Source: Halobacterium salinarum DSM 3754
GTDB lineage: Archaea; Halobacteriota; Halobacteria; Halobacteriales; Halobacteriaceae
DNA: 64,000 bases
Assembly (NCBI RefSeq): GCF_008124605.1
Contig: NZ_VRYN01000001.1
Coordinates: 298,772-362,771, forward strand
Direction: 5' to 3'
Shown here: positions 6,045-17,079 of the stretch, piece by piece
Numbering within the stretch: the first letter of the stretch is position 1
Layout: each line of letters starts with the position of its first letter
Position numbers and translations under genes: made by a program
Notes under the pieces: model-generated
What the model saw: the letters and a program-made list of their open reading frames with translations, nothing else
The model's database searches: none
What the model was told of the DNA's origin: nothing

Positions 6045-7313
<1,269 letters not shown>

Positions 7314-7344
7314 CGCCGCCAGCGCCGAGCACCGACCACCGCGG

Positions 7345-7356
7345 GCCGGTTTTTTG
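7345..7356 (+). terminator. Possible T-run terminator after icd
   Basis: A run of six T residues in an otherwise GC-rich gap lies about 35 bases after the icd stop and just before the promoter of the next gene. Archaeal termination often uses such U-tracts. No transcript data are visible here. Confidence 0.3.
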
Positions 7357-7364
7357 AGCCGTCG

Positions 7365-7372
7365 TGTTTATC
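7365..7372 (+). promoter_or_regulatory. TATA box of the zinc-ribbon gene at 7398
   Basis: TGTTTATC is centred about 29 bases before the ATG at 7398 and therefore predicts a leaderless transcript. Confidence 0.5.
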
Positions 7373-7397
7373 CTGGCCGACGCCCCATGATCGGGTG

Positions 7398-7922
7398 ATG
7401 TCGTACGCTGTCGTCGGGTGTTCGGACTGCAACGCGCTGTGGGTGGTCGCGGGCCGCCCGGAGACCACCAGCTGTCCGCGCTGCGAGACGCGCCACCAGT
7501 TCGGGACGCTCAAACAGTTCGTCACCACCGACGACGAGGACCACGCCCGTGAGGTGCGGGCGTCGATCCTCGCGAACAAGGCGGGCTACGGGGAGGCGTT
7601 CGCTGACATGGACGGGTTCACGGCGCTCGGCGAGGACGCCATGGCGGCGGGCATCGACGACGACGACTACCTCGACGCGGCCGGCGTCGACGCGGCCGAG
7701 GCGGCGGCCGCCGGGGAGCGCGCCGAGGGCACCCGGCGCAGCCGCTCGCGACAGGACACCGTCAGGGCGGCGCTGCGGGAGTTGGACGAGCCGACGGAGC
7801 GCGAGGTGGCGGCGTTCGCCGCCGAGCACGGCGTCGGCAGCGAGTACGTCGCGGACGCGCTGGCGAAGTTGACGCGGGCGGGCGAGGTCGTCGACGCCGG
7901 GGACGGCTACCGGCTGCTGTGA
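7398..7922 (+). CDS. Haloarchaeal zinc-ribbon/winged-helix protein (DUF5817-like)
   Basis: A 174-residue cytosolic protein. The N-terminus carries two CxxC pairs (CSDC at about residue 8 and CPRC at about residue 31), a zinc ribbon. The middle is Ala/Asp rich, and the last 50 residues (DTVRAALRELDEPTEREVAAFAAEHGVGSEYVADALAKL) look like a small winged-helix domain. I recall similar proteins in many haloarchaea under a DUF5817-type label. A role in DNA or RNA binding is plausible but unproven. The start ATG follows an in-frame GTG; the TATA spacing fits either. It is convergent with hmgA. Confidence 0.8.
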   Translation: MSYAVVGCSDCNALWVVAGRPETTSCPRCETRHQFGTLKQFVTTDDEDHAREVRASILANKAGYGEAFADMDGFTALGEDAMAAGIDDDDYLDAAGVDAAEAAAAGERAEGTRRSRSRQDTVRAALRELDEPTEREVAAFAAEHGVGSEYVADALAKLTRAGEVVDAGDGYRLL

Positions 7923-12275: not shown

Positions 12276-12353
12276 GGCGGGTGTCAGGCCGGCGTGTTGA
12301 CTACGGTGAGTCTCCCAGTGGCAGTATTGAAGAACTAATCTTTTCATTGTGGA

Positions 12354-12382
12354 GTTCTGAAGTGGTTATTACACTGGTGAAC
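12354..12382. promoter_or_regulatory. Spaced palindrome over the nadA promoter (candidate operator)
   Basis: Two arms, GTTCnnnAGTG (12354-12364) and CACTnnnGAAC (12372-12382), are perfect inverted repeats around a 7-base AT-rich centre GTTATTA. The centre overlaps where a TATA box is expected for nadA (starts at 12388 or 12397). This geometry suits a dimeric helix-turn-helix repressor. The arms are seen directly; the regulatory role is inferred. Confidence 0.5.
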
Positions 12383-12387
12383 TGAAC

Positions 12388-13521
12388 GTGGCACAAATGG
12401 ACACGTCGTCGTTCGAGACCGACCTGAGTCTCTTCAAATACGACGACCTCGAAGCACTTCCCGATGAGTACCGTGAGTTGACACCAACAGCGCGCACCGA
12501 GCGCATCGAGGCGGCGCGCGCCGAACTCGGCGACGACGTCGTGGTGTTGGGCCACAACTATCAGCGCCGCGAGATCGTCGAGCACGCCGACTTCGTCGGC
12601 GACTCCTACCAGCTCTCGAAGGAGGCCGCCAACGCCGACGCCGACTACGTCATCTTCGGCGGCGTGACGTTCATGGCCGAGAGCGCGGACATCATCACCG
12701 ACGACAGCCAGTCGGTGATCCTGCCGTCGATGGAGGCCTCCTGCCCGATGGCGGGGATGGCCGAAGCCCTCCAGGTGGACGCCGCGTGGGCGGACATCAC
12801 CGCCGCCGCCCCCGACGAGACCATCATCCCGATCACGTACATGAACAGCTACGCCGACCTGAAGGCGTTCTGTGCCGAACAGGGCGGGCTGGTCTGTACG
12901 TCCTCGAACGCGCACCGCGCCTTCGAATGGGCGTTCGAGCGCGGCGACAAGGTGTTGTTCCTGCCCGACAAGCACCTCGGCGAGAACACCGCCCACCGCC
13001 TCGGCATGGCGGACGCGACCGTCGAGTGGGACCCCTGGGCCGCCGAGGGGAAGACCGCCGAGGAAGTCGCCGACGCCGACATCGTGCTCTGGGACGGCTA
13101 CTGCCAGGTCCACGAGCGGTTCACGCCCGAGCACGTCGCCGAGGTCCGGGCGGACCACGAGGACGCCAACGTGGTCGTCCACCCCGAATGCCGCCGGGAG
13201 GTCGTCGAAGCGGCCGACGTCGTGGGGTCGACCGCAACGATCACCGAGACCGTCGCGGACGCCGACCCGGGGGAGACGTGGGCCATCGGCACCGAGATCC
13301 ACCTGGCCAACCACCTCCAGCGCTGGCACCCCGAGGTGAACGTCGTCCCGCTGTGCGGGGACGCCTGCATGGACTGCAACGCGATGCGCCAGATCGACCC
13401 GAACTACCTCGCGTGGGTCCTCGAAGAACTCGTCGAAGGCCGCGAGCGCAACGTCATCGAGGTTGACAGCGAGGAAGCGGAGTTGGCACAGGTGGGCCTC
13501 GACCGCATGCTTGAACTCTGA
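12388..13521 (+). CDS. nadA: Quinolinate synthase A
   Basis: Condenses iminoaspartate with dihydroxyacetone phosphate to quinolinate, second step of de novo NAD synthesis. The 377-residue protein has the three pseudo-repeat domains and the Cys ligands expected for a [4Fe-4S] cluster: one in EASCPMAG, one in FCAEQGGLVC, and the CGDACMDCNAM motif near the C-terminus. The GTG at 12388 is used; an in-frame ATG at 12397 (MDTSSFETD) is also possible from the promoter spacing. It is followed after 2 bases by nadB and then nadC in one operon. Confidence 0.95.
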   Translation: MAQMDTSSFETDLSLFKYDDLEALPDEYRELTPTARTERIEAARAELGDDVVVLGHNYQRREIVEHADFVGDSYQLSKEAANADADYVIFGGVTFMAESADIITDDSQSVILPSMEASCPMAGMAEALQVDAAWADITAAAPDETIIPITYMNSYADLKAFCAEQGGLVCTSSNAHRAFEWAFERGDKVLFLPDKHLGENTAHRLGMADATVEWDPWAAEGKTAEEVADADIVLWDGYCQVHERFTPEHVAEVRADHEDANVVVHPECRREVVEAADVVGSTATITETVADADPGETWAIGTEIHLANHLQRWHPEVNVVPLCGDACMDCNAMRQIDPNYLAWVLEELVEGRERNVIEVDSEEAELAQVGLDRMLEL

Positions 13522-13523
13522 CG

Positions 13524-15053
13524 ATGACCGACGCCACCACCACCGACGTACTCGTACTTGGATCGGGCATCGCGGGGTGTGGGGCCGCGCTGGCCGCCGC
13601 CCGCGAGGGCGCGAGCGTGCTCGTCGCGACGAAGGCCCAACAGCCCGCTGACGCCAGCACCGACTGGGCACAGGGCGGCATCGCCACCACCCGTGACGAC
13701 CCCGAGTCGCTGAAACGGGACATCCTGGCGGCCGGCGACGGGGAGGCCGACCCCGAGGCCGTGGACGCACTCGTGGGCGACGCCGCCGCGGCCGTCGAGG
13801 ACGTGCTCGTGGACACGCTGGGCGTGCCCTTCGATGGCGAGGAGGGGTTCGACTACGCTCGGGAGGCCGCCCACTCGGCGGCGCGCATCCTGCACGTGGA
13901 CGCCGCCACGGGCCACCACATCCTGGGGCCGTTCCTCCGACACCTCGACGCCCACGAGAACGTCGACATGCTGGAGGACGCCGCCGCCCTCGATCTGATC
14001 ACCGACGAGGGGGCGGTGACCGGCGCGCTGCTCGACCGCAACCCCCGAACGGGCGACCGCGCCGAGACTGGGGTGCCGGTGTTCGCCGGATCGACGGTGC
14101 TCGCGACGGGCGGCATCGGCGACCTCTATCGGCGCTCGACGAACCCGCGCGGATCGACGGGCGACGGCGTCGCGATGGCCGCGCTGGCCGGGGCCGACGT
14201 CACCGACGCCGAGTACGTCCAGTTCCATCCGACCGCCTACGACGACGCCGACCCGTTCCTGGTCTCGGAGGCGGTGCGGGGCGAGGGCGCGCTCCTGCGG
14301 AACGCCGACGGCGAGCGGTTCATGCCGGACTACCACGAGGACGCCGAGCTCGCGCCCCGCGACGTGGTCGCGCGTGCCGTGGCAGCCGAACGGGACGCCA
14401 CGGGCGAGGTCAGGCTGGACGTCTCCCCGCTCGCGTTCGCCGAGGAGTTCCCCGGGCTGGCGGAGGCCTGCGCGGACCGCGGCGTCGACTGGGAGACCGG
14501 CATCCCGGTTGCGCCCTGCGAGCACTTCCTTTGTGGCGGCGTGGCCGTCGACACGGTGGGACGGACGAGCCTCGACCGGCTGTTCGCGGTCGGCGAGTGC
14601 GCCCGCACGGGCGTCCACGGCGCGAACCGGCTGGCGTCCACGAGCCTGCTCGAAGGCCTCGTTTGGGGGTTGCGCGCCGGCGAGACGGCGGCCGGTGACG
14701 ATCGCGCGCCGGCACCGAGCGAGCCGCCCGAGCTGCGGGACCGCGACCCCGACCTTCCCGACGGGTTCGCCGCCGAGAAGTTCCGGCGGCTGCGCCGCGT
14801 GATGGACGAACACGTCGGCCTCCGGCGCACCGGCGCGGACCTCCAGCGCGCGCAGGGCGTGCTCCGCCGGCTCAAAGGCGAGGTCGATTCGTACGCCCGC
14901 ACGCGGACGAGTCGTGACCTCTACCAGCTCCGGAACGCCGCCGTCGTCGGGCTGCTGATCGCGCGGGCCGCCGGTGAGAACCCGGAGAGCGCCGGCTGCC
15001 ACCACCGCAGCGACGAGGCTGCCGCCGAGGAGGCCCCCGATGCCGGTCACTGA
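13524..15053 (+). CDS. nadB: L-aspartate oxidase
   Basis: FAD-dependent oxidation of aspartate to iminoaspartate, feeding NadA. The 509-residue protein starts with the dinucleotide-binding motif VLVLGSGIAGCGAALAA, has DWAQGGIA, the VLATGGIGDLY motif, the substrate-binding FHPTAYDD and EAVRGEGALLRN regions, and CEHFLCGGVAVD in the FAD domain, then a helical C-terminal domain. The N-terminus lacks any export signal. Its 3' end overlaps nadC by 14 bases. The C-terminal tail (ESAGCHHRSDEAAAEE) is truncated or degenerate relative to some homologues but in the usual size range. Confidence 0.94.
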   Translation: MTDATTTDVLVLGSGIAGCGAALAAAREGASVLVATKAQQPADASTDWAQGGIATTRDDPESLKRDILAAGDGEADPEAVDALVGDAAAAVEDVLVDTLGVPFDGEEGFDYAREAAHSAARILHVDAATGHHILGPFLRHLDAHENVDMLEDAAALDLITDEGAVTGALLDRNPRTGDRAETGVPVFAGSTVLATGGIGDLYRRSTNPRGSTGDGVAMAALAGADVTDAEYVQFHPTAYDDADPFLVSEAVRGEGALLRNADGERFMPDYHEDAELAPRDVVARAVAAERDATGEVRLDVSPLAFAEEFPGLAEACADRGVDWETGIPVAPCEHFLCGGVAVDTVGRTSLDRLFAVGECARTGVHGANRLASTSLLEGLVWGLRAGETAAGDDRAPAPSEPPELRDRDPDLPDGFAAEKFRRLRRVMDEHVGLRRTGADLQRAQGVLRRLKGEVDSYARTRTSRDLYQLRNAAVVGLLIARAAGENPESAGCHHRSDEAAAEEAPDAGH

Positions 15054-15846
15054 CGCCGACGTGGAGCGGTGGCTGCGCGAGGACCTCGGCCACCACGACG
15101 TGACCAACGACGTGCCCGGCGAAACCACGGGCCGACTGGTCGCCAAGCAGGCCGGCGTCGCCGCCGGCCTCGACGCCGCCGTGCGGGTCTTCGAGTATCT
15201 CGGCTGCGAGGCCGACGCCCCCGCGGCGGCCGGCGACCGGATCGACGCCGGCGACACCGTGCTCCGGGTTTCGGGGGCCGCACAGAGCGTGCTCCGGGCC
15301 GAGCGCGTCGCCGTGAACGTCGCCGGCCACGCGTCCGGCGTCGCGACGAAGACCCGGCGCGCGGTCGCCGCCGCCCGCGAGGCGAGCGACGACGTGGCGA
15401 TCGCGGGCACCCGGAAAACCACCCCCGGGCTGCGGGGCGTCGAGAAGCGCGCGGTGGTCGCGGGCGGCGGCGACACCCACCGCCTGGACCTCTCGCACAT
15501 GGTGATGGTGAAGGACAACCACGTCGCCGAGCTCGGCCTCGAAGGAGCCATCGAGCGCTTCCGGGCGGCGAAGAGCTTCGCGACGAAACTCGACGTGGAG
15601 GTCGAGACCCCCGAGGACGCGCCCCGGGCCGCCGACGCCGGCGCGGACATCGTCCTGCTGGACAACATGACGCCGGCGGAGACCGAGCGCGCCGTCGACC
15701 TGCTCGACGGCGCGGCGCTCGCGGAGGCCAGCGGCGGCATCACCGTCGACGACGTGCCCGCGTACGCGGCCACGGGGGTCGATGTCATCTCGATGGGGGC
15801 GCTGACCCACTCCGCGCCCACCCTCGATCTCTCCTTCCGGACGTAG
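15040..15846 (+). CDS. nadC: Nicotinate-nucleotide pyrophosphorylase (carboxylating)
   Basis: Converts quinolinate and PRPP to nicotinate mononucleotide, 268 residues. Family motifs are present: ERVAVNVAGHASGVAT, TRKTTPGLRGVEKRAVVAGGG, HRLDLSHMVMVKDNH, EVETPEDA and GVDVISMGALTHSAP. The ATG at 15040 lies inside the nadB 3' end; a longer in-frame start at 14974 would only read nadB sequence. It completes a nadA-nadB-nadC operon. Its stop is immediately followed by the stop of the convergent TrmB-like gene, with no spacer. Confidence 0.95.
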   Translation: MPVTDADVERWLREDLGHHDVTNDVPGETTGRLVAKQAGVAAGLDAAVRVFEYLGCEADAPAAAGDRIDAGDTVLRVSGAAQSVLRAERVAVNVAGHASGVATKTRRAVAAAREASDDVAIAGTRKTTPGLRGVEKRAVVAGGGDTHRLDLSHMVMVKDNHVAELGLEGAIERFRAAKSFATKLDVEVETPEDAPRAADAGADIVLLDNMTPAETERAVDLLDGAALAEASGGITVDDVPAYAATGVDVISMGALTHSAPTLDLSFRT

Positions 15847-16638
15847 TCAGCGGAGCGCGGACAGCGTCTCGGCGCGCTCCCACGCCCGCTCGAAGCGGTC
15901 CTGCAGCCGCGCCAGCAGGGCGTCGTCGCGGAGTTCCACCGCGCCGAGGCGCTCGCCCTCGTCGAGAGGGTGGGGCACGTGGAGGTAGACGCGGTCGTCG
16001 TCCACGATATCGAAGGTCGCAGCGAGGGCCGTGGTGACGCGCAGCGACACGGCCTCGCGGTCGAGGTACGCGTCGCGGACCGCCGCCGGAACCGTGTCGA
16101 GGACCGGCGCAGCCACGAGCACGCGCACCGACTGCTCGGTTGGCAGCGTCTCGTCGAACGCCGCGATCTCGGCGTCGTAGCGGTCCCAGGGCGCGCCGAC
16201 GTAAGGGCGACTCATGGCCGACCGGACCTCGTCGCTGGCGTCTTCGAACACCTGGCGGGTGAGCGAGACGGCCGTCTCGCTGCCGAGTGGGGCGGTCCAG
16301 AAGCGGCTCTCGGTCGGCGGGACGGCCGCGAGTTCGTCGCCGAGGGCGGCCGCGAGGCGTTCGTAGCGGTCGGTCTGCTCGGCGAGTTCCCGCTTGCGCT
16401 CCGCCAGCAGCCGGTCGGCCGCCGTCTCGGGGTCAACCGCACAGTACCGTGTCGGCTCCCCCGGCCGCGTCTCGACGAGGTCGCGCGCCGCGAGGCCGTT
16501 CAGCACGTCGTAGACGCGTCCCATGGGGACGCCGCTGGCGTCCGAGACGGCGCGCGCCGTCGACGGGCCGCGCGCCAGCAGGGCGCGGTAGCACTGCTCT
16601 TCGTACCCCGAGAGCCCGAGTTCGGCGAGCCGCGACAT
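15847..16638 (-). CDS. TrmB-like transcriptional regulator
   Basis: A 263-residue regulator. The N-terminal winged helix (LSGYEEQCYRALLARG... SDASGVPMGRVYDVLNGL) is followed by a coiled-coil-like stretch (AERKRELAEQTDRYERL) and a C-terminal sensor region of about 150 residues. I chose MSRLAELG; nine more residues are possible upstream. It is convergent with nadABC and divergent from the SMR exporter. TrmB proteins usually sense small metabolites, often sugars. Here it could act on nadABC, on the exporter or elsewhere; nothing in the sequence decides this. A paralogue lies at 30999. Confidence 0.85.
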   Translation of the reverse strand: MSRLAELGLSGYEEQCYRALLARGPSTARAVSDASGVPMGRVYDVLNGLAARDLVETRPGEPTRYCAVDPETAADRLLAERKRELAEQTDRYERLAAALGDELAAVPPTESRFWTAPLGSETAVSLTRQVFEDASDEVRSAMSRPYVGAPWDRYDAEIAAFDETLPTEQSVRVLVAAPVLDTVPAAVRDAYLDREAVSLRVTTALAATFDIVDDDRVYLHVPHPLDEGERLGAVELRDDALLARLQDRFERAWERAETLSALR

Positions 16639-16740
16639 ACCGGGCTGCGGGCGGCCGGACCGCAAGTAGCTGCCGGAAACGCGCTACAAGTGGCACCACG
16701 TTCGGAAACGCACTTTCCCCGGCCGAACGACACAGCGGTC

Positions 16741-17079
16741 GTGCATCCATACGCGTATCTGGCGGCGGCGATCGCCGCGGAGGTGGCCGGCACGACCGCG
16801 CTGAAACTGTCCGAGGGGTTCTCGAACCCCGCGCCGAGCGTCGTCGTGCTCGTGGGCTACGTGAGTTCGTTTTACTTCCTCGGCCTCGTCCTGGAGGAAC
16901 TCCCGGTCGGGGTGGTGTACGGGACGTGGGCGGCCGTCGGCATCGTCGCGACGGCGCTCGTCGGCGTGGTCGTGTTCGAGGAGTCGGTCGACGTGGCCGG
17001 TGTCGTCGGGCTTGCGCTCATTGTCGCGGGCGTCGTCGTGTTGAACGTCGCCTCGGACGCCTACACGCCGGCGCACTGA
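16741..17079 (+). CDS. hsmR: Small multidrug resistance (SMR) exporter, HsmR
   Basis: Proton-coupled efflux pump of the EmrE family, 112 residues with four membrane helices. The conserved membrane glutamate lies in AAAIAAEVAGTTALK (residue 14 counting from the GTG start). Later motifs are YVSSFYFLGLVLEELPVGVVYGTWAAVG and the V/A-rich fourth helix. Valine plus alanine dominate its composition, as described for the Halobacterium HsmR protein. The start is GTG at 16741. It is divergent from the TrmB-like gene and may be controlled by it. I am confident of the family, and the identity rests on memory of the published protein. Confidence 0.9.
   Translation: MHPYAYLAAAIAAEVAGTTALKLSEGFSNPAPSVVVLVGYVSSFYFLGLVLEELPVGVVYGTWAAVGIVATALVGVVVFEESVDVAGVVGLALIVAGVVVLNVASDAYTPAH

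Follow-up and report, generated by a model that had tools for sequence, protein, structure and literature searches.

What switches haloarchaeal nadA on and off is the question raised by the nadABC operon of Halobacterium salinarum DSM 3754, which lies within the 64,000-nucleotide stretch of DNA analysed here (the window). A sequence-only reading had proposed a dedicated switch composed of a spaced palindrome at the nadA promoter and a TrmB-like regulator facing the operon. The general idea of such a switch gained support from our comparisons through a different element, the dyad at 12325-12349, while the palindrome failed as its site. The features concerned are collected in Table 1; the start codon of nadA is either GTG 12388 or ATG 12397. 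An RNA switch was rejected: between 11000 and 17500 no Rfam model, the NAD+ riboswitch included, gave a match at any E value up to 1. NAD+ riboswitches, which reside in nadA RNA, likewise place nadA under NAD status, but the element described here is a dyad in promoter DNA.

Table 1. Features of the nadABC locus and its surroundings in the window
Feature	Position	Strand	Assignment and basis
Dyad TATTGAAGAACTAATCTTTTCATTG	12325-12349	+	Candidate operator over the nadA core promoter; 2 mismatches to TATTGAA-N11-TTCAATA
Palindrome GTTC TGA AGTG GTTATTA CACT GGT GAAC	12354-12382	+	Palindrome of the sequence-only reading; judged a chance match
GGTGA	12376-12380	+	Presumed Shine-Dalgarno-like element within the palindrome right arm; aligned with the AGGTGA of nadA leaders in other haloarchaea
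nadA, quinolinate synthase	12388-13521	+	PF02445, 320 bits; TIGR00550 above cut-off
nadB, L-aspartate oxidase-like	13524-15053	+	FAD_binding_2; closest NCBIfam models, with scores below cut-off, are L-aspartate oxidases
nadC, quinolinate phosphoribosyltransferase	15040-15846	+	TIGR00078, 329.7 bits against a cut-off of 198.4
TrmB-domain/DUF7436 regulator facing nadC	15847-16638	-	PF01978 and DUF7436 (PF24217)
AAGTG-N8-TTCG between regulator and SMR genes	16688-16704	+	Candidate site of the DUF7436 regulator
SMR-family transporter gene, GTG start	16741-17079	+	Reading frame, presumed SMR by sequence recognition; homologues adjoin the regulator in L026 and L190-L206

The letters of the palindrome GTTCnnnAGTG-N7-CACTnnnGAAC are present as described, and both 4-bp blocks of each arm are complementary. 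The arms had been called perfect; only 8 of 11 positions pair, the three middle positions of each 11-base arm being unpaired. A scan of the genome itself returned a single exact copy and therefore no regulon of perfect copies. Palindromes of exactly the same form occur six times in the 64 kb, against 3.8 +/- 2.2 in Markov shuffles, and the wider class was present in 85 of 300 random 120-bp window segments (28%). We fetched 80 haloarchaeal nadA loci and compared their upstream regions in register; the palindrome was absent upstream of nadA in all of them, contrary to the conservation in other Halobacteria on which the proposal had been staked. Its counterpart in the closest relative, Halobacterium sp. 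TGN-42-S1 (NadA 92% identical), already carries four mismatches, and those in the other loci carry 5-9. Nor does the palindrome overlie the TATA box as supposed: alignment with the 80 other nadA promoters placed a constant A/T-rich core element at about 12335-12345 instead. The right arm likely overlaps the ribosome-binding site, the Shine-Dalgarno-like GGTGA; in many other species of the 80-locus comparison the corresponding AGGTGA is followed a few bases downstream by ATG or GTG. Owing to this overlap, the region of the palindrome is more likely leader than TATA box. With neither conservation nor a frequency above chance, the palindrome was rejected as an operator, and we judge it from its sequence to be a chance match.

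The element that is conserved lies 29 bases upstream of the palindrome. It is a 25-bp dyad, TATTGAAGGMAAAATCTTTTCAATA or TWTCGAAGGAAAAAGTTATTCAATA, located about 70 bp before the NadA start in nearly all loci; in the 71 sites with N11 spacing, G5, A6 and C21 are invariant. A motif search of 40 loci returned TTGAAGGnAAAAnTTATTCAA as the top shared 21-mer upstream of nadA, with 26.7 bits and an interquartile position of -71 to -69. Three control genes from the same loci gave best motifs of 15.1-20.9 bits, a comparison that is indicative since the control sets were smaller (10-29 loci). Scanning 97 Halobacteria genomes with a 22-mer pattern at up to two mismatches produced 70 matches, 56 of which fall upstream of nadA. 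These cover 56 of the 60 nadA-bearing genomes and stand 114-187 bp ahead of the NadA domain match; the remaining four (G000, G009, G030 and G067) carry weaker forms of the dyad. The copy at 12325-12349 is the best match in its own genome, with one half-site degraded. A regulatory element of the form TTGAARR-N7-YYTTCAA at this position, rather than the palindrome, appears to be the best explanation of the conservation upstream of nadA.

Only 14 of the 70 matches lie away from nadA, and 10 of these precede a gene for a DUF3311 protein followed by a sodium:solute symporter gene (PF11755, PF00474). The dyad is kept at this pair in several genomes that lack nadA, and in one genome (G036) the pair sits directly behind nadC with a perfect dyad of its own. 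A symmetric version of the pattern revealed further symporter promoters in other lineages, one pncB gene (NF006415, 536 bits against a cut-off of 243) and one MFS gene, the latter encoding a transporter of the aromatic-acid type. Of 19 matches in 45 further genomes, 7 were located at nadA, 8 at the symporter and 1 at the MFS gene, 16 in all. The pncB gene is present in all 97 Halobacteria genomes, and among those examined it carries the dyad (up to three mismatches to the symmetric pattern) only in seven, belonging to some lineages only. The dyads of pncB and the symporter begin 63-84 bp ahead of the start codon. In the window's own genome nadA is the sole carrier of the dyad, which is missing from the symporter and pncB promoters. 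A reversed-pattern control gave similar raw match numbers in the looser scans. It is thus the location of the matches and not their number that carries the argument, and single matches outside the recurrent targets mean little. At the level of sequence, the scans establish the site, its position and its conservation, namely a symmetric dyad at a constant place before orthologous genes, and a target set in which the same site precedes other genes of the pathway.

We consider it likely that the dyad is the operator of a haloarchaeal NAD-supply regulon comprising nadABC and, elsewhere, the symporter pair, pncB and the MFS gene, with a repressive action over the nadA core promoter. The dyad pairs the half-sites TTGAA and TTCAA across a constant N11; their starts are 16 bp apart, or roughly one and a half turns of the helix, a spacing that would suit a dimeric helix-turn-helix protein. 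Conservation at nadA extends past the half-sites into the interior AAAAnYTWTT, which would follow if the dyad contained BRE and TATA. The dyad would thus bracket the A/T-rich core promoter (BRE/TATA), with transcription of nadA predicted to begin near 12365-12372, and a dimeric winged-helix-type protein seated on it could block TBP/TFB, shutting down nadA when NAD or an NAD precursor is plentiful. One regulon would then join de novo synthesis by nadABC with presumed precursor uptake and pncB salvage in other genomes. Repression at the nadA dyad is probable, and we infer the protein binding, the ligand and the transporter substrate as well. The DUF3311/symporter pair is predicted to transport niacin or another NAD precursor (vitamin B3); the closest named model of the symporter is the pantothenate transporter PanF, below its cut-off. 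The broader proposal, a class-wide NAD regulon acting through TTGAAGA-N7-TCTTCAA, with a regulator whose family has no previous link to NAD and with DUF3311/symporter as a new kind of niacin/NAD-precursor transporter, stands in our estimate evenly between true and false. A precise operator with a short list of recurrent targets reduces the problem of haloarchaeal NAD control to one affinity purification and one mutagenesis experiment, and it offers a predicted function for a transporter pair that is widespread and whose small subunit still goes by the name DUF3311.

A core promoter inside a regulator site usually gives repression, and nadA, the target with the highest conservation, appears to have its A/T-rich core promoter inside the dyad. 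This arrangement makes the opposite sign of control, in which an activator bound to the dyad recruits TBP/TFB at low NAD, rather unlikely. In its favour, the pncB and symporter dyads, given their distance from the start codon, may lie upstream of the core promoter, and archaeal regulators upstream of BRE/TATA often activate, as has been discussed for TrmB (PMC10817205). We hold it distinctly less probable that the dyad is only a strong conserved nadA core promoter of BRE and TATA box, with incidental symmetry and no regulator. For this view, AAAAnYTWTT within the dyad is a conserved A/T-rich stretch in a position that suits a TATA box, and such stretches are few in G/C-rich genomes. However, the symmetric TTGAA/TTCAA ends with their fixed N11 fall outside BRE/TATA, the symporter, pncB and MFS genes carry the dyad too, and the control promoters have no comparable conservation. 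At pncB, moreover, the dyad sits upstream of a distinct TTTTT element, which pncB promoters without the dyad have as well.

The regulator facing nadC is indeed stop-to-stop with that gene, ending at 15847 next to the nadC stop at 15846. This adjacency is not conserved. Among the 80 nadA loci, a homologue near the nad operon was found only in L026 (58% identical, two genes from nadC), and a more distant paralogue lies far upstream of the operon in two others. What is conserved is a divergent SMR gene, which adjoins the regulator in the window, in L026 and in all of the best 17 homologues outside the window's genome (L190-L206). Fourteen regulator-SMR intergenic regions, compared by eye, have AAGTG-N8-TTYS in common. 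One genome (G009) retains a broken regulator/SMR remnant behind its nad operon while the dyad upstream of nadA is intact, and seven of the 97 genomes have no DUF7436 match, yet six of these still carry the dyad, five of them at nadA. The pairing with SMR, the decay in G009 and the dyads in genomes without DUF7436 suggest that the regulator most likely serves the SMR gene and not nadA, contrary to the role first assigned to it; on synteny and presence/absence it was rejected as the nad regulator, and it is very unlikely to be the cognate protein of the dyad. That it binds the palindrome and senses NAD or quinolinate is highly improbable: its place beside nadC, echoed by the G009 remnant, and the AAGTGG common to the palindrome left arm and the regulator-SMR element are outweighed by a palindrome right half unlike that element, by the chance-level, unconserved palindrome itself, by a regulator that travels with SMR and decays while the dyad stays, and by the differing motif of the characterised haloarchaeal TrmB, TACT-N7-8-GAGTA (PMC3794607). 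Here adjacency to nadC misleads as a guide to the nad regulator.

That characterised protein, Halobacterium TrmB (VNG1451C), offers one close comparison. Its regulon is likewise haloarchaeal and includes cofactor pathways, and the window neighbour shares its DNA-binding domain. The TrmB motif is, however, unlike the dyad, and the neighbour has a DUF7436 C-terminal domain and scores far below the cut-off of the sugar-sensing haloarchaeal TrmB equivalog NF047392 (41 bits against 500). In bacteria, the NAD regulons of NiaR, NrtR, NadR and NadQ similarly use one repressor-type site for the genes of de novo synthesis and of niacin salvage and transport; the operator sequences of these four regulators differ from the haloarchaeal dyad. 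The NiaR and NrtR regulons have a target list like the present one (synthesis, salvage and presumed uptake). The 3H domain of NiaR (PF02829) and the winged-helix domain of NrtR (PF21906) were each found in 0 of 97 Halobacteria genomes, although the positive controls were recovered, and both were rejected as the dyad regulator. Because both families are absent, the haloarchaeal regulon would work like the NiaR/NrtR regulons without being one.

No transcription-factor gene was found among the dyad targets or consistently beside them, and no autoregulated transcription factor was seen among the matches listed in the motif scans. In 14 loci from Haloarculaceae and their relatives (for example L025, L045 and L047-L051) an HTH+GNAT-type protein is encoded behind nadC, on the other strand; with no dyad nearby and a limited lineage, it was set aside as a regulator. 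Two more candidates were set aside as local only: a DtxR-type regulator that three genomes have near the symporter, and a protein with an NrpR domain that lies near nad in Haladaptatus plasmids. The open-licence literature yielded no description of a haloarchaeal NAD regulator or of archaeal NAD-gene regulation, and an earlier description elsewhere is possible. According to PMC3794607, the cofactor branches of Halobacterium metabolism seem to depend on regulators yet to be identified. A laboratory Halobacterium knockout strain gained a nadA start-codon mutation, ATG to ATA, a background that could confound experiments on NAD regulation (PMC11834397).

De novo NAD synthesis is often lost in Halobacteria, since nadA is missing in 37 of the 97 genomes, including 4 of 7 of the window's genus, while pncB is universal. 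One same-genus relative without nadA (L103, G066:C1:2147457) has a copy of the dyad before a phosphonate-type ABC transporter, which could be a captured NAD-precursor transporter or could reflect chance. Acetamidase/formamidase-like genes lie near dyad-like sites in L116 (G039) and L138 (G006, divergent from nadA there), as a possible link to nicotinamide amidase or a coincidence. Plasmid searches with the symporter and the MFS protein returned nothing. The TrmB/DUF7436 regulator and its divergent SMR pump gene, a conserved pair with the AAGTG-N8-TTYS element between them, form a candidate drug- or metabolite-responsive pump circuit in their own right. In G009 the remnant of this pair (L137, G009:C2:130500-138500, at 7239-7639) is a fused regulator and SMR fragment behind nadC. 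Its gene order matches that of the window, and this points to acquisition of the nad locus from a Halobacterium-like donor, with decay afterwards.
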